Shown: positions 915 to 59,375 of the stretch, in pieces
How positions within the stretch are numbered: the first letter of the stretch is position 1
How the letters are laid out: every line of letters begins with the position of its first letter
DNA from: Devosia sp. Root413D1
GTDB lineage: Bacteria > Pseudomonadota > Alphaproteobacteria > Rhizobiales > Devosiaceae
DNA length: 64,000 bases
NCBI RefSeq assembly: GCF_001425235.1
Contig: NZ_LMEA01000010.1
Coordinates: 254,275 to 318,274, forward strand
Reading direction: 5' to 3'
Position numbers and translations under genes: made by a program
Notes under the pieces: model-generated
The model's database searches: none
Told to the model about the DNA's origin: nothing
What the model saw: the letters and a program-made list of their open reading frames with translations, nothing else

Positions 915-1940
915 ATGGCTTCCCCGTTCCTCGATCGCGACCTCTACGTCCGCCCCATCGACGCCTATATCGATCCCCCGGTGCCCCGGGCCCGGGCGAT
1001 CATCACCCATGGCCATGCCGATCACGCCCGCTCGGGTCACGGTGCAGTGCTGGCGACGCCCGATACCATCGCCATCATGAAAGCTCGCTATGGCGAAGAC
1101 TCGGCCCAACAGTTCCAGCCACTCGAGTTCGATACGCCGTTGCAGGTCGACGACGTCACCATCACGCTGAAGCCGGCCGGCCACATCCTCGGCTCGGCGC
1201 AGGTGCTGATGCAGCACCAGGGCCAGCGCATCGTCGTCACCGGCGACTATAAGCGGCTGCCCGATCGGACGGCGCAGCCGTTCGAGCTGGTCGAATGCGA
1301 CCTGCTGGTCACCGAGGCGACGTTCGGCCTGCCGGTGTTCCAGCACCCCGATCCGCTCGACGAGATCGGCCGGCTGCTGCGCTCGGCTGCCGCCTTTCCG
1401 GATCGCGCTCATGTCATCGGCTGCTACGCGCTGGGCAAGGCACAGCGCGTGATCTCGCTGCTGCGCGACGCCGGCTACGACGCGCCGATCTACCTGCACG
1501 GGGCGATGATCCGGCTCTGCGAACTCTACATCGCCCGCGGTATCCTGCTCGGCGAACTGAAGCCAACGCTCGGCACCAGCAAGGCCGAGCTCGCCGGGCA
1601 GATCGTCATCGCGCCGCCCTCCGCCATCAAGGATCGCTGGAGCCGGCGATTGCCCGATCCGGTGCTGGCCGTCGCCTCGGGCTGGATGAGCGTCAAGCAA
1701 CGGGCCCGGCAATCCGGCGTCGAGCTGCCGCTGGTGATCTCCGACCATGCCGACTGGAACGAGCTGCGCCAGACCATTGCCGAAACCAAAGCCGGCAAGG
1801 TCTGGGTGACGCATGGGCGCGAGGATGCGCTGGTCTATCATTGCCGGCAGCAGGGGCTCGAGGCCGAGCCGCTCAACATCCAGGCGTTCGAGGAGGGCGA
1901 AGAGGGCGAACCGGACGCGCGGGGAGAGCTCGAAGAGTGA
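915..1940 (+). CDS. Ligase-associated DNA exonuclease (metallo-beta-lactamase/beta-CASP fold)
   Basis: 341 residues. The metal-binding motif HGHADH is at residues 32-37, followed by later metallo-beta-lactamase signatures PAGHILGSAQ and VTGDYK and a C-terminal DHADW. These match the mRNA 3'-processing-exonuclease-like proteins found beside ATP-dependent DNA ligases (ligase-associated exonuclease family, from family knowledge). The likely role is trimming of DNA ends during repair in the cytoplasm. Its stop overlaps the GTG start of the ligase gene by 4 bases (GTGA), so the two are almost certainly co-translated. The usual third partner, a ligase-associated Lhr-like helicase, is not adjacent here. 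Confidence 0.92.
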   Translation: MASPFLDRDLYVRPIDAYIDPPVPRARAIITHGHADHARSGHGAVLATPDTIAIMKARYGEDSAQQFQPLEFDTPLQVDDVTITLKPAGHILGSAQVLMQHQGQRIVVTGDYKRLPDRTAQPFELVECDLLVTEATFGLPVFQHPDPLDEIGRLLRSAAAFPDRAHVIGCYALGKAQRVISLLRDAGYDAPIYLHGAMIRLCELYIARGILLGELKPTLGTSKAELAGQIVIAPPSAIKDRWSRRLPDPVLAVASGWMSVKQRARQSGVELPLVISDHADWNELRQTIAETKAGKVWVTHGREDALVYHCRQQGLEAEPLNIQAFEEGEEGEPDARGELEE

Positions 1941-3517
1941 GGCGCTTTGCTCAACTGATGGAGCTTCTGGCGCTCACCCCGTCGCGCAACCGCAAGCTCG
2001 AGGCGCTGACCCAGTATTTTGCCGAGACGCCGGACCCAGACCGCGGTTTCGCGCTCGCCATCCTCACCGGCGCGCTGAGCTTCAAGAACGTCAAACCGGC
2101 GATCCTGCGCGATGTCGTCCTCGCCGAGGTCGACCCGCATCTGTTCGCGCTCAGCTACGACTATGTCGGCGATCTCGGCGAAACCATCGCGCTGATCTGG
2201 CCGCATCATGGTGGGACCGAGCCGCTGCCCTCGCTCTCGGACCTGGTCGAACTGTTCAACATGACCAGCAAGTCCGAACTGCCGCGGCTGATCGGTTCGC
2301 TGCTCACCCGCGCTTCCATCAACGAGCGCTGGGCGCTGGTGAAGTTCGCCACCGGCGCGCTGCGCATCGGCGTCAATGCACGGTTGGCCAAGACCGCATT
2401 GGCCGAAATGAGCGGCAAGGACCTGCAGGAGATCGAGGAGGTGTGGAACGGCCTCACCGTGCCCTACACCGACCTGTTCGACTGGCTCAGCGGCAAGGCC
2501 GAGCGGCCGGATATTGATCATACCGCGCGCTTCCACCCGCTGATGCTCAGTAACCCGATCGACGAGGGCAAGGACCTCGAAAAGCTCGACCCGGCCGACT
2601 TCGTCGCCGAGTGGAAATGGGACGGGATCCGGGTGCAGCTGATTGCGTCGAAGGGCAGGGTCTCGCTGTTCTCGCGTACCGGCGACGATATCGCCGCCGC
2701 CTTCCCCGACGTGACCGAGAGCGTCTTCGGCGACGCCGTGCTCGATGGCGAGCTGCTGGTCGGGGCGGGTTTCGAACCGTTGCCGTTCAACGACCTGCAG
2801 CAGCGGCTCAATCGCAAGGTGGCTACGGCCAAGCACCTCGCCGACTACCCGGGTTTCATCCGCGTCTACGACATGCTGTTCGACGGCAACGAGGATATTC
2901 GCGCCCTCGCGTGGAGCGAGCGGCGGCAACGTCTCGAAGCGTGGTTTCAAAACAACCCGCAGACCCGCCTCGATCTCTCGCCGGTGCTGAGTTACCGCGA
3001 CTGGGAAGATCTGGCCGAGATCCGACGTCGCGGCGCGGCGGAGCAGGGGCATGAAGGGGTGATGGTGAAGCTTCGCGCCGCACCCTACCTGCCTGGCCGC
3101 CCCAAGGGTTTTTGGTACAAGTGGAAGCGCGACCCGAACGTGGTCGACGCGATCCTGATGTACGCGCAGCGCGGCCACGGCAAGCGCTCGTCGTTCTACT
3201 CGGACTACACATTCGGGGTGTGGAAGGGCAACGAGATCGTGCCGATCGGCAAAGCCTATTTCGGCTTCACCGACGAGGAGCTGAAGCAGCTCGACAAATG
3301 GGTGCGTAACAACACCGTCGCCAGCTTCGGCCCGGTGCGCGAGGTGTCGAAGGAGCTGGTGTTCGAGGTGGCGTTCGACAGTGCCCAGCAATCGGGCCGG
3401 CACAAATCCGGCATCGCGCTTCGCTTCCCCCGTATCAACCGGATAAGGTGGGACAAGCCGGCCAGCGAGGCCGCAACGCTCGACGAAATGCAGATTTTCC
3501 TAGAGCCTTTCAATTGA
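1937..3517 (+). CDS. ATP-dependent DNA ligase (exonuclease-associated type)
   Basis: 526 residues from a GTG at 1937 that overlaps the exonuclease stop. This start gives the family-like N-terminus MRRFAQLMELL; an in-frame ATG at 1958 is a weaker alternative. The adenylation motif I is KWDGIR, with the nucleotide-accepting Lys at residue 227. Later motifs include FSRTGDD, LDGELL, EGVMVK and FWYKWKRD, so the adenylation and OB domains look complete. The enzyme would seal nicks with ATP, in addition to the usual NAD-dependent LigA, probably in repair. The last codons lie inside a palindrome (3501-3526) that may end the transcript. Confidence 0.93.
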   Translation: MRRFAQLMELLALTPSRNRKLEALTQYFAETPDPDRGFALAILTGALSFKNVKPAILRDVVLAEVDPHLFALSYDYVGDLGETIALIWPHHGGTEPLPSLSDLVELFNMTSKSELPRLIGSLLTRASINERWALVKFATGALRIGVNARLAKTALAEMSGKDLQEIEEVWNGLTVPYTDLFDWLSGKAERPDIDHTARFHPLMLSNPIDEGKDLEKLDPADFVAEWKWDGIRVQLIASKGRVSLFSRTGDDIAAAFPDVTESVFGDAVLDGELLVGAGFEPLPFNDLQQRLNRKVATAKHLADYPGFIRVYDMLFDGNEDIRALAWSERRQRLEAWFQNNPQTRLDLSPVLSYRDWEDLAEIRRRGAAEQGHEGVMVKLRAAPYLPGRPKGFWYKWKRDPNVVDAILMYAQRGHGKRSSFYSDYTFGVWKGNEIVPIGKAYFGFTDEELKQLDKWVRNNTVASFGPVREVSKELVFEVAFDSAQQSGRHKSGIALRFPRINRIRWDKPASEAATLDEMQIFLEPFN

Positions 3518-3584
3518 AGGGCTCTAGGTTATTGTTTTGACGCGCTTTCGAACCGGAAAAGTCTGCAACTTTTCCTGAAAGCGC
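3501..3584 (+). repeat. Two-hairpin module, copy 1
   Basis: The first hairpin, 3501-3526 (TAGAGCC...GGCTCTA), spans the ligase stop codon. After 15 nt comes the second hairpin, 3542-3584. Its outer arms are GCGCTTTC/GAAAGCGC, its inner arms GGAAAAGT/ACTTTTCC, and its loop is CTGCA. Related copies are at 6451-6530, 9046-9091, 25886-25925, 51739-51833, 54661-54756 and 56913-57077. Because it follows a stop and precedes a new gene, it may end or process the transcript. It resembles in style the mosaic palindromic elements known from rhizobia and Brucella. Confidence 0.85.
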
Positions 3585-3608
3585 TTTGCTCGCCAGCTGA
3601 GGCCGGAC

Positions 3609-3863: not shown

Positions 3864-3937
3864 ATTCTTCACCTCTCCCTTGGGGGCTTACGTGGGCGGT
3901 GGTCGAGCCGACGCGCTGCGATCACCCCACCTACGAT

Positions 3938-4015
3938 GTCATCCCAGCGAAAGCTGGGACCCATCTATCCGCTGGCACAAGTGGCGAGTTGGGTCCCAGC
4001 TTTCGCTGGGATGAC
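3938..4015. repeat. Long inverted repeat, GTCATCCCAGC family, copy 2
   Basis: Perfect 26-bp arms at 3938-3963 and 3990-4015 with the same sequence as the repeat at 174-257, but a different centre. It lies between the convergent UVR-motif gene and the merR gene, where a bidirectional terminator would fit. Confidence 0.9.
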
Positions 4016-4071
4016 AGCCGGTGGGTAGGCAAAAAACGAGGCCAGCTGCTGCGGCCGAGCCGTGAAATGGC

Positions 4072-6345: not shown

Positions 6346-6450
6346 ATGGTGATGGCGCCTGCCCGGGCGGTACAATCGGCAACAAGAATCGGACCGGGTG
6401 CGTTGTTGAGCGGGGGCTCATCTCGCTTATCGACGATGCGCCACGACTTA

Positions 6451-6530
6451 GAGCACTTCCCGAAGTGCTCCAGGTGTTTGACTTTTCACGCTTTCGAACC
6501 GGAAAAGTCTGCAACTTTTCCTGAAAGCGC
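6451..6530 (+). repeat. Two-hairpin module, copy 2 (fadE leader)
   Basis: Hairpin one, 6451-6470, is GAGCACTTC-cc-GAAGTGCTC. After 17 nt comes hairpin two, 6488-6530, nearly identical to that at 3542-3584. It ends 21 bases before the fadE start codon, so the transcribed form would sit directly upstream of the ribosome binding site. Confidence 0.88.
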
Positions 6531-6551
6531 CTAGGTCGAGGAGAGACGTGC

Positions 6552-9038
6552 ATGGTCTGGGCTCTGCTGATCCTGTCGATTGCCCTTTTCGCGGTGCTGG
6601 CAATGCGCCGTGCGCCGCTTTGGCAATGGGCGGTGGCGACGCTGCTGATCGGGGCGCTGACCCGCATCTCGACCGATAATGGTCTCTGGTTGATGACGGA
6701 CGTGCTGGGCTGGGTCTTCGCCCTGCTGCCGGCGGCGATCCTCGGTCTGTTGTCCCTCGTGCCCATCCGCAAGGCGGTGCTCTCCGGCCCGGCCTACGGC
6801 CTCGTCAAATCCATCCTGCCGCGCGTCAGCCGTACCGAGCAGGAGGCACTCGATGCCGGCACCGTCGGCTGGGACGCCGAGCTGTTCTCGGGCCGGCCGG
6901 ACTGGAGCAAGCTGCTCGGGGTGCGAAAGCCCACCCTATCGACCGAAGAACAAGCCTTCCTCGATGGGCCGTGCGAAAAAGTCTGCGCCATGATCGACGA
7001 CTGGGACACGCGCAACAACCGCGCCGACATGTCCCCGGCGGTCTGGACCTATCTCAAGGAACAGGGCTTTCTCGGCATGCTGATCGGCCGCGAACATGGC
7101 GGCCTCGGCTTTTCGGCGCAGGCGCAGAGCCAGGTGGTCAGTAAGATCGCCTCGCGCTCGATCGCTGCAGGGATCACCGTGATGGTGCCCAACTCGCTGG
7201 GGCCGGGCGAACTGCTCGAGAAATACGGCACCGAGGAACAGAAGAAGAAGTACCTCACCCGCCTCGCGAAGGGGCAGGAAGTGCCGTGCTTCGCGCTCAC
7301 CGGCCCGCATGCGGGCTCCGACGCGGCGGGCATGCGCGATGTCGGCGTCGTCTGCTACGACATGTATGAGGGCAAGAAAACGCTCGGGGTGAAGCTCAGC
7401 TGGGACAAGCGCTACATCACGCTGGCGCCGGTCGCGACGCTGCTCGGCCTCGCCTTTCATCTCCATGACCCCGACCACCTGCTCGGTGAAGTCGACAATA
7501 TCGGCATCACGCTGGCGCTGGTCCCCGCCAAGCACAAAGGCGTCAAGATCGGCCGCCGGCATTATCCGGCACGCTCCGCTTTCATGAACGGCCCGACCCA
7601 GGGCCGCAACGTCTTCATCCCGATGGATTTCCTGATCGGCGGTACCGAATATGCTGGGCAGGGCTGGCGCATGCTGATGGAGTGCCTCGCCACCGGCCGC
7701 GCCATCTCGCTGCCGGCCATCGGCACCGTCTCGATCAAGCACGCGCTGCGCGTCACCTCGGCCTATGCCCGAATCCGCCGGCAGTTCGGCATCCCGGTGG
7801 GCCTGATGGAGGGCGTCGCCGAGCCGCTGAGCCGCATGGTGCGCTTCGCCTATACCTACGAAGCGTCGCGCGGCCTCACCGCCTCGATGGTTGACGAGGG
7901 CCAGCGCCCCTCGGTGCTGTCGGCGCTGCTCAAGTACCGCACCACCGAAGCGATGCGGCTTGCCTTCAACGACGCCATGGACATCCATGGCGGCCGCGCC
8001 GTGCAGGATGGCCCGACCAACTACCTGTTCTCGGGCTACATGACGACGCCGGTGGCGATCACCGTCGAAGGCGCCAACATCCTGACCCGCACGCTGATCA
8101 CCTTCGCCCAGGGGGCGCTCAGGGCGCACCCATACCTCTATGCCGAAATCTCGGCGGCGCAGTACAAGGACAGGAAGGCCGGCATCGCCGCCTTCGACAC
8201 CGCCTTCGCCGGCCATGTCAGCTTCATGCTGCGCAACATGGTGGGCAGCTTCCTCCATGCCGTCAGCTTCGGCGCCTTCGCCTCGACCCCGGTCGATCAC
8301 GAGATGGCGCGCTGGTACAAGCAGCTCAGCCGCTACAGCCAGAGCTTTGCGCTCTGCGGCGACTGGACCGTGGCGTTTCTCGGCGGTGACTTGAAGCGCA
8401 AACAGCGCCTCTCGGGCCGCATGGCCGATATCCTCTCCGACCTATACCTGCTCTCCTCGGTGCTCCGCCGCTATGAGGATGACGGGCGGCTCGCCGAAGA
8501 CCGGCCGGTGGTCGAGGCGGTCGCTCGCGACCTCTGCTATTCGCTGGAGCAGAGCTTTGCCGCGGTGTTCGCCAACTTCCCGAACTTCGCGCTCAGGAAC
8601 CTGATGCGGGTTCTGGTGTTCCCCCTCGGTCGCCACGCCAAGCCCGCCTCCGACCGCGAGACCTATCGGCTGGCGCGCTCGGTGATGGTGCCCGGCGCTT
8701 TCCGCGACCGGTTGACCAAAGGAACTTATGTCTCGATGGACCCCAAGGACCCGACCGGCGTCCTTGAAGACGCGCTGCTCAAGGTCACCGGCGCCGCCGA
8801 GATCGAAACCAAGTTCGTGCGGGCGATCAAAAAGGGCGTGGTCGAGCGCCGGCTCGATCGCGACGCGATCAGCGATGCGGTGGAGGCGGGTGTCCTGACC
8901 GAAGCCGAGGCCGCAACGCTCAGGCTCGCCGACCAGGCGACCGACCGGGTGATCAAGGTCGACGATTTCGATTTCGATGAACTCGGCTCCAAGCAGTTGC
9001 GCCGCGAGCCGGCCGCCATCGACGCCGCCGCCGAGTAG
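6552..9038 (+). CDS. fadE: Acyl-CoA dehydrogenase, FadE type
   Basis: 828 residues, close to the 814 of E. coli FadE. The N-terminus has two hydrophobic segments (about residues 1-20 and 25-75), as in FadE proteins. The dehydrogenase core follows, with the flavin/substrate loop ALTGPHAGSDAAGMRD and a later IHGGRAVQDGP. A C-terminal DUF1974-like extension (about 550-780) completes the family architecture. It oxidises acyl-CoA to trans-2-enoyl-CoA with FAD in the first step of beta-oxidation. It leads a row followed by the FadJ- and FadI-type genes, and its promoter carries the shared palindrome. Confidence 0.95.
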   Translation: MVWALLILSIALFAVLAMRRAPLWQWAVATLLIGALTRISTDNGLWLMTDVLGWVFALLPAAILGLLSLVPIRKAVLSGPAYGLVKSILPRVSRTEQEALDAGTVGWDAELFSGRPDWSKLLGVRKPTLSTEEQAFLDGPCEKVCAMIDDWDTRNNRADMSPAVWTYLKEQGFLGMLIGREHGGLGFSAQAQSQVVSKIASRSIAAGITVMVPNSLGPGELLEKYGTEEQKKKYLTRLAKGQEVPCFALTGPHAGSDAAGMRDVGVVCYDMYEGKKTLGVKLSWDKRYITLAPVATLLGLAFHLHDPDHLLGEVDNIGITLALVPAKHKGVKIGRRHYPARSAFMNGPTQGRNVFIPMDFLIGGTEYAGQGWRMLMECLATGRAISLPAIGTVSIKHALRVTSAYARIRRQFGIPVGLMEGVAEPLSRMVRFAYTYEASRGLTASMVDEGQRPSVLSALLKYRTTEAMRLAFNDAMDIHGGRAVQDGPTNYLFSGYMTTPVAITVEGANILTRTLITFAQGALRAHPYLYAEISAAQYKDRKAGIAAFDTAFAGHVSFMLRNMVGSFLHAVSFGAFASTPVDHEMARWYKQLSRYSQSFALCGDWTVAFLGGDLKRKQRLSGRMADILSDLYLLSSVLRRYEDDGRLAEDRPVVEAVARDLCYSLEQSFAAVFANFPNFALRNLMRVLVFPLGRHAKPASDRETYRLARSVMVPGAFRDRLTKGTYVSMDPKDPTGVLEDALLKVTGAAEIETKFVRAIKKGVVERRLDRDAISDAVEAGVLTEAEAATLRLADQATDRVIKVDDFDFDELGSKQLRREPAAIDAAAE

Positions 9039-9045
9039 AGACCCC

Positions 9046-9091
9046 GAGCGTTTCGGGAAAAGTCGCAGACTTTTCCGGTTCGAAAGCGCTC
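9046..9091 (-). repeat. Two-hairpin module, second hairpin only, reversed (copy 3)
   Basis: Read on the minus strand this is the second hairpin of the module. Inner arms GGAAAAGTC/GACTTTTCC surround GCA, with outer arms GAGCGCTTTC/GAAACGCTC. It fills the gap between fadE and the next fad gene and ends 20 bases before that gene's ATG. The first hairpin of the module is not recognisable here. Confidence 0.8.
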
Positions 9092-9111
9092 TAGAGAACG
9101 AGGAGCCGGAA

Positions 9112-25690: not shown

Positions 25691-25991
25691 CAGGCGCCCC
25701 CGGATACTTCGATGCCGGCGATAGTTCGCATCGCGAGTGAACAGACGATTACCCGCTCCTCCGAACCGCCATCGGTTTGTCGCATGGGTGAATCAGCCGT
25801 CTGGAGCACTGCAGGTATAACTGCGTAGGTGTTTGGCCGGACGGCAGCAGGCGGGGCTGAGACGCCCCCAGGCCCTTGATTCGTCTCGCTTTCCAACCGG
25901 AAAAGTCCGCAACTGCACCTGAAAAGCCTGCAGTGGCGATGGAACGAGAAGCCGGCCGGCAAGTTTTGCTGCGGGGCTTTCAGGAGCAGTT
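25691..25991. other. 301-base intergenic region
   Basis: Divergent space between the GGDEF/EAL gene and a small hypothetical gene. It contains a decayed copy of the second hairpin of the repeat module (25886-25925) and is otherwise without clear structure. No convincing gene or consensus promoter was seen. Confidence 0.5.
25886..25925 (+). repeat. Degenerate second hairpin of the two-hairpin module (copy 4)
   Basis: The sequence keeps the linker and left inner arm (CTTTCCAACCGGAAAAGT) and a CGCAACT loop, but the right arm is broken. It is recognisable as family by alignment with 3542-3584, and probably no longer folds. Confidence 0.6.
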
Positions 25992-51122: not shown

Positions 51123-51761
51123 ATGCTGGAAACCCTGCTGCCGTTCATTCTGACGTCGTTCGCCATCGAACTCACGCCCGGGCCGAACATGGGGTACCTC
51201 GCGGTGCTCAGCCTCGATCGGGGCCGCATCGCCGGGTTCGCCGCTGCCGCTGGCGTGGCGCTCGGCCTGCTGGTGCTCGGGCTGGTGGCCGGGCTCGGGT
51301 TCGGCGCGCTGATCAGCGAGACGCGCTGGCTCTACGAGGCGCTGCGCTGGGGTGGCGTAGCCTATCTGGTCTGGCTCGGCTGGGACAGCTATCGCGACAC
51401 GCAGAAGCCGCTCGAGCCCGAGGATGTGCAGAAGAACCTGGCGGGTTATTTCGGCCGCGGCCTCGCTTCGAACCTGCTCAATCCCAAGGCTGCGGTGTTC
51501 TACATCGCGGTGCTGCCGAACTTCGTCTCCGGCACGGCGCCGGCCATCCCACAACTGCTCAGCCTGACCCTAGTGTATGTCGCAGTAGCGACGATCATTC
51601 ACCTGGGGATCGTCCTGCTCGCCAGCACGCTGCAGCCGGTACTGTCATCGGACCGGATCCGCAGTCGGGCCGGTATCGTCTTCGGCGTGACGCTCGTGCT
51701 CATCGCCATCTGGCTCGCCGTCACCACGCATCGGACCTGGAGCGTTTCACCGCTTCAATGA
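51123..51761 (+). CDS. LysE-family exporter
   Basis: 212 residues with six membrane helices. The N-terminal signature TPGPNMGYLAVLS is characteristic of LysE/RhtB amino-acid exporters, and NLLNPKAAVFYIAVLPNF is the second conserved block. It would export an amino acid or related metabolite. It is probably transcribed with the hydrolase gene. Its last seven codons lie inside the first hairpin of a repeat module (51739-51776). Confidence 0.93.
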   Translation: MLETLLPFILTSFAIELTPGPNMGYLAVLSLDRGRIAGFAAAAGVALGLLVLGLVAGLGFGALISETRWLYEALRWGGVAYLVWLGWDSYRDTQKPLEPEDVQKNLAGYFGRGLASNLLNPKAAVFYIAVLPNFVSGTAPAIPQLLSLTLVYVAVATIIHLGIVLLASTLQPVLSSDRIRSRAGIVFGVTLVLIAIWLAVTTHRTWSVSPLQ

Positions 51762-51833
51762 CCGGCGGAGCGCTCCAGTTTCTCGATTCGGTCGCGCCTT
51801 CGAACCGGAAAGTCTGCAACCTTTCCTCAAAGC
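51739..51833 (+). repeat. Two-hairpin module, copy 5
   Basis: Hairpin one (51739-51776) has arms GGAGCG...CGCTCC and an imperfect inner stem, and overlaps the lysE-type stop codon. After 17 nt comes a worn second hairpin at 51794-51833 with inner arms GGAAAG.../CTTTCC and the usual CTGCA centre. Confidence 0.72.
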
Positions 51834-51838
51834 ACCTA

Positions 51839-54627: not shown

Positions 54628-54660
54628 GTTGGAGTCCTCAATGTTTGACGCGTTTTATCA

Positions 54661-54756
54661 GAGCAGGATTGCGTTTCGTTGAAGCGCACTCCTGCTCCAA
54701 GTCCTAGTAGTCGCGAGATCTAACCGGAAAGGTCTGCAACCTTTCCTGATCTCGCT
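54661..54756 (+). repeat. Two-hairpin module, copy 6, with compensatory changes
   Basis: Hairpin one (54661-54697) has arms GAGCAGGA/TCCTGCTC. After 15 nt comes hairpin two (54713-54756), with outer arms GCGAGATC/GATCTCGC, inner arms GGAAAGGT/ACCTTTCC and loop CTGCA. Compared with the copy at 3542-3584, both stems have changed on both sides while the linker TAACC/GAACC and the loop are kept. Confidence 0.88.
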
Positions 54757-54865
54757 CTAGTTCGACCCAGAGTGGATCGGGAGTCTATCCGTTGCCGCCA
54801 ACGGCACAAGGCCTCATCCGGTTGCGCACAACTGCACAAATATGAGCAAGTTCTGGCGGTACGTA

Positions 54866-56879: not shown

Positions 56880-56912
56880 TTAGGTCCCCCGGAAGGCGCG
56901 GCTCATGCCTAG

Positions 56913-57077
56913 TTTGTCGCGCAGTCGAACCGCAAAAGTCTGCAACTTTTGCTGACTACGCTCGCGACGTTTGTCGCGCAGTCGAATCGCAAAAGTCTGC
57001 AACTTTTGCTGACTACGCTCGCGACGTTTGTCGCGCAGTCGAATCGCAAAAGTCTGCAACTTTTGCTGACTACGCTC
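56913..57077 (+). repeat. 57-bp tandem repeat, three units, from the second-hairpin family
   Basis: Units start at 56913, 56970 and 57027; the third is slightly short. Each holds a hairpin with inner arms GCAAAAGT/ACTTTTGC, loop CTGCA and outer arms GCGCAGTC/GACTACGC. The inner first pair differs from other copies (GC/GC for GG/CC), again with pairing kept. The units differ by one base (GAACC in the first, GAATC in the others). The array lies upstream of purE and past the tetR 3' end. Confidence 0.92.
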
Positions 57078-57141
57078 CGTGGTTTTCACCCTTAGGGAAG
57101 AGCCCCGCCGAGCGCAAGCGGCTAGCCCTTGTCCTTTGTGG

Positions 57142-59244: not shown

Positions 59245-59375
59245 GTTCTTGCTCTTGTTGCACCCTGGAGGTCAGGAAAAGCCCGTCTCGCGAAGGCGGG
59301 GATCACAGGCCCTTCCGATTCGAAAACGCGACCAAGTCAAAGACTGAGAGCATCTCACCGAAATGGTGGGATGCG

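Follow-up and report, generated by a model that had tools for sequence, protein, structure and literature searches.

A folded palindromic repeat in Devosia sp. Root413D1 that behaves as a mobile DNA element and favours one chromosome strand

Intergenic palindromes of the RIME and Bru-RS type have been known since the 1990s. The Rhizobium-specific intergenic mosaic element RIME1, credited to Osteras in 1995, is said to be a 108-bp intergenic element with two palindromes. Caulobacter CIR repeats contain the CcrM site GANTC within the repeat. RIME1 is named as an annotated rhizobial intergenic repeat, and repeats of this type are described there as being of unknown function (PMC2573895). Bru-RS1 and Bru-RS2 are palindromic repeats of 103-106 bp in Brucella, and the same reports place the Brucella insertion sequence IS711 at YTAR sites with duplication of TA, with one copy inside Bru-RS1 (PMC3163539, PMC10800456). 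CGTC-tagged repetitive extragenic palindromes (REPs) (Di Nocera 2013) are mostly alphaproteobacterial hairpins of 20-40 bp with stems of 8-9 bp and loops of 4-5 nt, mostly in head-to-head dimers; TGTC is reported as a tag variant, CCTC is another form of the tag, and no dedicated transposase is described (PMC3733652). Here we analyze a repeat found in 64,000 nucleotides of Devosia sp. Root413D1 (contig NZ_LMEA01000010.1, positions 254,275 to 318,274; hereafter the window). The repeat at 3498..3588 of the window is one copy of a folded DNA repeat of about 90 bases that is inserted at many chromosome sites. On the eight main contigs, 121 of 144 copies (5 of 149 were omitted) are on the majority strand, a ratio of 84:16.

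A full copy consists of two hairpins joined by a T-rich linker of about 15 nt, the end of which is often GTC. The arms of hairpin 1 are of GAGC or GGAGC type. In hairpin 2, an outer and an inner stem of 8 bp each are separated by an internal loop, where GAACC is unpaired on one side and a single T lies opposite, and the loop at the tip is CTGCA. The inner stem and the CTGCA loop are nearly invariant across copies, and shorter forms with hairpin 2 only also exist. The window contains eight strong copies and two weak ones (Table 1). A preliminary description of this DNA listed four (3501-3584, 6451-6530, 51739-51833, and 54661-54756); all are present with the two-hairpin layout it gave, and the units of an array and the copies at 9045-9104, 25871-25930, and 59267-59344 had been missed. 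Among the stem variants that it named, GCAAAAGT/ACTTTTGC is in none of those four and belongs to the array at 56904-57078; the others are found in the listed copies. A 22-mer with up to three mismatches was found eight times in the window against 0.00 expected, which excludes chance.

The genome of strain Root413D1 has 5.85 Mb in 14 contigs. When up to two mismatches are allowed, it has 113 occurrences of a 17-mer core and 0 of the reversed pattern. A covariance model search, which the preliminary description had proposed, was run with a model (R1) built from 35 copies. It yielded at least 149 matches at E<=0.001 in the strain's own genome (150 candidates were scored, so this is a lower bound) and, with stricter filters, matches in 26 of 41 genomes (own genome plus 40 relatives). 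Elements are present on all eight own contigs larger than 350 kb. Under the stricter filters, copy number within the genus ranges from 0 to 132, and relatives G006 and G016 have no match. The exact core was found, among the matches listed, in Brucella, Ochrobactrum, Mesorhizobium, Phyllobacterium, Rhizobium, Pleomorphomonas, Beijerinckia, Methylocella, Pelagibacterium, Devosia, and several metagenome bins. In other genera the outer stem is frequently GCATGATC/GATCATGC with unchanged core and layout, and like stems are present at Devosia insulae loci. The resemblance to rhizobial and Brucella elements that had been noted earlier is supported by sequence relatives of the same layout in Brucella/Ochrobactrum, Mesorhizobium, Phyllobacterium, Rhizobium, and other Hyphomicrobiales.

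We read the element as a RIME/Bru-RS-like, MITE-like (miniature inverted-repeat transposable element) DNA hairpin element; the claim is one of likeness, not membership. Set beside RIME1 by description, it is similar in being intergenic, about 100 bp long, made of two palindromes, and at home in Rhizobiales; the two-hairpin layout is present in the window copies. Bru-RS1/2 (Halling and Bricker 1994), also compared by description, are likewise palindromic, and Brucella/Ochrobactrum carry the exact hairpin 2 core. Sequence context was taken for 142 of the 149 own copies, and the core was located in 137 of these. In the latter set, the GANTC site of CIR repeats was not enriched (28/137 elements compared to 19/137 neighbouring stretches). 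An upstream hairpin scoring >=9 was found in 47/137 copies, compared to 0/137 shuffles and 10/137 downstream flanks. The four bases before the outer stem were TGTC in 49, GGTC in 28, GTCG in 20, and CGTC in 4 of the 137 copies, and a GTAG tag at the hairpin foot was not among the 12 commonest. With the CGTC REPs (PMC3733652), the element shares a mostly alphaproteobacterial range, stems of 8-9 bp, and the lack of a dedicated transposase, and TGTC before the outer stem in those 49 copies may correspond to the reported tag variant; it differs in having two hairpins, a length of about 90 bp, an inner hairpin inside the outer stem, mostly single copies, and one majority orientation. E. coli-type REP/RAYT systems are similar in being abundant, extragenic, imperfect palindromes with a conserved core and a possible single-strand hairpin substrate. 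Unlike them, the element has no accompanying Y1 transposase in 19 genus genomes and its polarity is not tied to replication arms. Possible MITE traits are the YTRGAGC...GCTCYRG ends and empty sites with CTAG (two) or TTAG (one), others being without.

Some variation in layout was observed. Hairpin 2 variants with extra GATCCCCGGATCAAGTCCGAGGA-like bases in the internal loop by the inner stem occur at loci L001, L006, and L017 of the own genome and in own matches of 79-84 nt, indicating that the element is mosaic. Short tandem arrays of hairpin 2 are also present elsewhere in the own genome and in Mesorhizobium, Phyllobacterium, and Pleomorphomonas (own C8:495090 and C8:495158; L041, L063, and L039).

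Comparison with sister genomes gives the insertion history. Flank queries were made for the 142 own copies, and for 22 of them one or more of the relatives' loci had a site that could be compared. In seven of the 22, at least one relative has a copy in the same orientation, so these copies are older; the copy at 6451 is one of them (absent from G003 and G014, present in G011). In 13 (11 loci, with the window array counted once), the site in the relative has no R1 match and is shorter than the own site, by 48 to 116 bp if the array is set apart. The remaining two (C11:869637 and C1:781400) have sites of about full length in relatives, again with no R1 match. Clean absences were found in G014 (54661, C1:135683, C7:244151, C1:452010, and C11:21751) and, for the copy at 3501, in G003, G011, and G012. 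The element behaves as mobile and non-autonomous. Its mobility and its polar orientation are new beyond the preliminary description. At C9:237643, a hairpin-2-only copy has an upstream palindrome resembling a hairpin that is already at the empty site of G014 (L151), which suggests that in a few cases the "first hairpin" may come from the host locus.

Element ends have the consensus YTRGAGC (24 copies) and GCTCYRG (116 copies), and empty sites have CTAG at two loci (TTATCTAGCC and CTTCTAGCAA), TTAG at one, and no clear motif at the others. These ends are inverted repeats, and together with the empty sites they fit a conventional MITE that arose by deletion from a DDE transposon of the IS5/IS427 or IS630 type. 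Its short terminal inverted repeats would be GAGC...GCTC, its target TA or CTAG, and its hairpins a by-product of the termini. IS711, reported in Bru-RS1 at YTAR with TA duplication, is a further point in its favour (PMC3163539). Three observations make such an origin unlikely in our view. Proteins of PF13340 and PF13358, the two families searched in this connection, were not found in the own genome or in relatives G014, G011, and G003 (PF13340 has four matches in G010); nothing in symmetric ends or a palindromic target accounts for an 84:16 orientation; and hairpin 2 is the most conserved part, with hairpin 1 and the other end variable or missing in many copies.

Paired change in the stems was claimed in the preliminary description and holds genome-wide. 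In 143 copies aligned to the model, an alignment that was fitted to the structure, 143 cells were changed on both sides compared to 30 in shuffles, and 0 of 500 shuffles were as high. Another 25 cells were changed on one side yet paired, and 94 were unpaired. Paired cells made up 95.9% (87.4% in shuffles), and sliding the stem partner abolished the covariation signal. The preliminary description had proposed comparing compensatory with single-sided changes across the genome; when all single-sided cells (25 + 94 = 119) are set against the 143 two-sided cells, the excess stays, by a modest margin. Alignment A1 comprised 35 of 38 copies (three insert variants were omitted), and a MAFFT alignment of 35 copies had 36 two-sided, 2 one-sided, and 27 unpaired cells. 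The outer stem has more than ten sequence types in one geometry (31/137 copies fall outside the stem-type table), and paired changes occur as blocks of 3-4 bases (CTTT/AAAG, AGAT/ATCT). Paired change around a fixed core and loop indicates that the folded form is maintained. As DNA, the three non-degenerate listed copies fold with z of -4.1 to -7.7 against shuffles; the degenerate copy at 51739-51833 folds barely better than shuffles (z -1.5 and -2.1).

Template switching between the arms during replication would also make paired changes, and pairing would then need no selection. The blocks of 3-4 bases are what strand switching would produce. However, a conserved core and loop and more than ten stem types with one geometry point to a constraint on form, and the layout is kept in other genera with other stems (GCATGATC/GATCATGC and others). 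We consider template switching an improbable source. The strand-wise gene conversion that the preliminary description had offered, with one arm converting the other, may have produced paired changes.

The element might instead act as RNA, as a terminator, an mRNA stabiliser, or a 3'-untranslated region element that spreads by copying and is retained because its transcripts are under selection. Two copies have stable RNA folds on both strands (z -5.6 to -7.7), and two window copies contain the stop codon of an upstream open reading frame (ORF); both points agree with such a role, and REP transcripts are reported in S. meliloti (PMC2873474). Gene context does not agree with it. Genes were called with a simple codon-usage script (coding density 84%), and 106 of the 142 copies lie outside called genes; the 36 within called ORFs were omitted. 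The 106 intergenic copies were 38 sense, 38 antisense, 16 divergent, 13 convergent, and one with a single neighbour in view, so orientation to flanking genes is random, and the chromosome-strand orientation holds in sense and antisense contexts alike. No Rfam family scored above its gathering score in the window; at relaxed E there were two sub-threshold matches, mir-980 and BASRCI408. Wobble intermediates are also scarce (25 cells), unlike the usual trace of selection on RNA, and orientation is set by the chromosome strand. A role as transcribed RNA is therefore not supported by the sequence data, and we rate it as having a low probability. The earlier proposal of selection on a folded RNA or DNA is supported for the maintained fold and not for the RNA role.

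Mismatches in the stems may tell which strand folds. In the written strand, A.C exceeded G.T in hairpin 2 (68 vs 27) and in hairpin 1 (35 vs 15), and after collapsing identical stems the skew was 54 vs 26 (p 0.002). An A.C in the written strand is a G.T in its complement, suggesting that the complementary strand folds, which is only a hint.

Orientation along the chromosome was the surprising property of the element. Dominance of one strand was found on single contigs (C7 18/19 minus, C10 16/18 plus, C12 11/13 plus), with C9 (13/18) and C13 (7/8) not significant on their own. Element strand equals the sign of contig GC skew in 122/146 copies (3/149, on small contigs, were omitted), which had suggested polarity by replication arm. 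We placed the parS site by a sequence pattern that we take to be its own; in strain Root413D1 it is at C1:391 kb, with 8 minus and 2 plus elements to the left and 14 minus and 4 plus to the right. The GGGCAGGG octamer, of the FtsK orienting polar sequence (KOPS) type, was the top replichore-polar 8-mer in an unguided count. It flips between arms in the own genome (39:2 vs 1:65) and in G014 (24:2 vs 2:25), and own contigs were allotted to arms by KOPS counts. The majority strand had 48/56 copies where it agrees with KOPS and 73/88 where it opposes KOPS. KOPS is weak on C9, and GGGCAGGG is 4:4 on C1 right of parS; C7, C8, and C12 alone have 46/52 copies on the majority strand. In relative G014, a single 5.03-Mb contig, parS is at 2.21 Mb and KOPS switches between 4.5 and 4.75 Mb; minus and plus elements number 22 and 5 on one arm and 31 and 7 on the other (53/65). 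On contig C1 of G011, KOPS flips at 0.2-0.4 Mb, and elements are 5/5 minus before 0.3 Mb and 10/13 minus after. Contig C2 of G035, from another family of the order, has 10/10 plus before parS and 3/5 plus after, a weak case. There is no flip of polarity at parS or at the KOPS-defined terminus, and replication-arm polarity is therefore rejected. Polarity ignores origin and terminus clearly in the own genome and G014 and more weakly in two others, and it is not seen in three more.

Polarity is similar across score bands (50/59, 37/45, and 34/40), and 9/11 loci that are empty in a relative follow the majority strand; it is thus not a matter of age. Between the own genome and G014, sense with respect to the majority strand agrees in 9 of 13 segment pairs and is opposite in 4, so inheritance can explain part of the polarity, and an ancient inversion of one arm may be a source of its uniformity. 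In opposite-sense segments, two own copies absent from G014 (C7:244151 and C11:299485) follow the strand of the own genome, which is slight evidence in favour of a current insertion bias.

GC skew along the element-majority strand was +0.049 and +0.022 in the two contig groups of the own genome, with elements masked, and +0.036 and +0.020 in G014. The sign is constant in both genomes, indicating that part of the GC skew also does not flip. Skew sign is partly kept through origin and terminus in G014, the own contigs, and G041; 17/20 evenly spaced 20-kb stretches of G014 have negative skew, and skew in Mesorhizobium sp. AR07 is slightly negative in most of 20 stretches.

Unidirectional replication was considered and not accepted. 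A survey of complete genomes predicted 77 unidirectional replicons among 16,103 large ones, which makes such replication thinkable (PMC7858055). Gene direction is rather against it: genes with and against KOPS direction numbered 215 and 167 (own genome) and 82 and 60 (G014) on one arm, and 112 and 123 (own genome) and 66 and 73 (G014) on the other. Direction of tRNA genes was uninformative (11 with, 8 against), and searches for rRNA genes (5 of 5 genomes) and for core-gene motifs had no matches. Strong, uniform polarity, with elements on all eight contigs larger than 350 kb, would also be expected of organising sites for a nucleoid or segregation protein, with orientation kept by selection and not by insertion bias. 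Polarity sites of known kinds change direction at the origin and the terminus, which is how GGGCAGGG behaves, and a copy number of 0 to 132 within the genus, with no match in G006 and G016, further argues against such sites; we regard this possibility as very remote. The 84:16 strand preference is unusual and unexplained by gene direction or replication arms. Literature searches found no work on palindromic repeat orientation versus leading strand in Rhizobiales, none on MITE-type palindromic intergenic repeats in Rhizobiales, and, by listing, none on this polarity in GC-skew work on Devosia.

Coordinates of the window copies and the state of their sister sites are given in Table 1. Copy 2 is intergenic, shortly 5' of the start of ORF 6552-9038. 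Copies 1 and 3 each overlap the end of an upstream ORF: ORF 1295-3517 has its stop codon at 3515-3517 and ORF 51123-51761 at 51759-51761, both within hairpin 1, so that the element altered the last residues of the protein and supplies the stop codon. A second abundant palindromic repeat family is present at 3896-4045, just downstream of copy 1, and has, among the matches listed, matches on both strands in the own genome, G014, G011, G003, G006, and others.

Table 1. Copies of the repeat in the 64-kb window, with the comparable sites of relatives
Feature	Position	Strand	Details	Sister sites
Copy 1, whole element	3498..3588	+	hairpin 1 3499-3528, then linker, hairpin 2	G003, G011, G012 without element; G010 with element in opposite orientation
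Copy 1, hairpin 2	outer arms 3542-3549 and 3577-3584; inner arms 3555-3562 and 3568-3575; loop 3563-3567	+		
Copy 2, whole element	6446..6536	+	hairpin 1 stem 6451-6470; hairpin 2 6488-6530	G003, G014 without element; G011 filled, same orientation
Reverse-orientation copy	9045..9104	-	covariance model match; unlisted in preliminary description	common to G003; only short hairpin in G011; G007 with another subtype, opposite orientation
Weak diverged hairpin 2 copy	25871..25930	+	24.3 bits	
Copy 3, degenerate	51737..51838	+	hairpin 1 51737-51778; hairpin 2 decayed	G014: shorter, different sequence, no R1 match
Copy 4, whole element, GAGCAGGATTGCG/GCGAGATC subtype	54659..54760	+	hairpin 1 54661-54697	empty in G014
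Copy 4, hairpin 2	outer arms 54713-54720 and 54748-54755; inner arms 54726-54733 and 54739-54746	+		
Head-to-tail array of three hairpin-2-only units	56904..57078	+	period 57 bp; GCAAAAGT/ACTTTTGC inner stem	G014: no R1 match
Weak copy	59267..59344	-	78 nt; 25.5 bits	

On balance, we lean towards a mobile, non-autonomous DNA element, about 90 bp long, that would be mobilised as a folded single-stranded hairpin. An enzyme supplied in trans, or since lost, would recognise the hairpin as folded single-stranded DNA, the outer stem by its shape and the core and loop by their sequence. The outer stem would thereby be free to drift in pairs, and the 84:16 ratio would arise if insertion depends mostly on the exposure or templating of one specific strand of the chromosome.

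Several points weigh against this explanation. We know of no single-strand mechanism that gives a polarity blind to replication arms, and a double-strand transposon with terminal inverted repeats fits the element ends as well. Exact CTAG is at the 3' end of only 10/137 copies, and target duplication is blurred, with left and right CTAG mostly drifted and some empty sites lacking CTAG. Copies in opposite orientation are found at own sites in G010 (L296, at 3501) and G007 (L287, at 9056), which looks like repeated insertion at preferred sites. The mismatch skew drops to 35 vs 24 (p 0.19) when one stem position is removed. Generality is limited by Mesorhizobium sp. AR07 (21 minus and 13 plus, with no test run), G040 (11 plus, 9 minus), and G019 (10 plus and 6 minus of 16 listed), where a minus-rich stretch right of parS looks nearer to a replication-arm switch. 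The search for a mobilising enzyme was also negative for three transposase families, other transposase families not being searched. The Y1/RAYT family PF01797 was found in 0/19 genus genomes; it is present in 5 of the 41 genomes overall, all five without R1 match, and in 5/14 control genomes, including E. coli and Caulobacter. We take DUF4096 (PF13340) and DDE_3 (PF13358) as markers of IS427-type and IS630 transposases, respectively. PF13340 was not found in the own genome, G014, G011, or G003 and had four matches in G010, while PF13358 was found in 0/5 genomes searched.

A wider reading is that the chromosome of this lineage has a persistent strand identity that is blind to replication arms, with the hairpin element as its recorder. 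It would rest on a strand that is G-richer on both arms and holds about 84% of elements, through parS and the terminus, with GGGCAGGG flipping. We put this forward tentatively, as a possibility and not as our expectation. If true, some process would have to handle the entire circle as a single molecule with a direction, and strongly asymmetric or unidirectional replication or directed single-strand transfer would be candidates. Polarity, if it truly ignores the arms, reveals a whole-chromosome strand asymmetry that standard bidirectional replication models do not predict. For palindromes of the RIME/Bru-RS type, the findings mean that they are now testable, being mobile, with the fold kept and orientation as a clean statistical signal.

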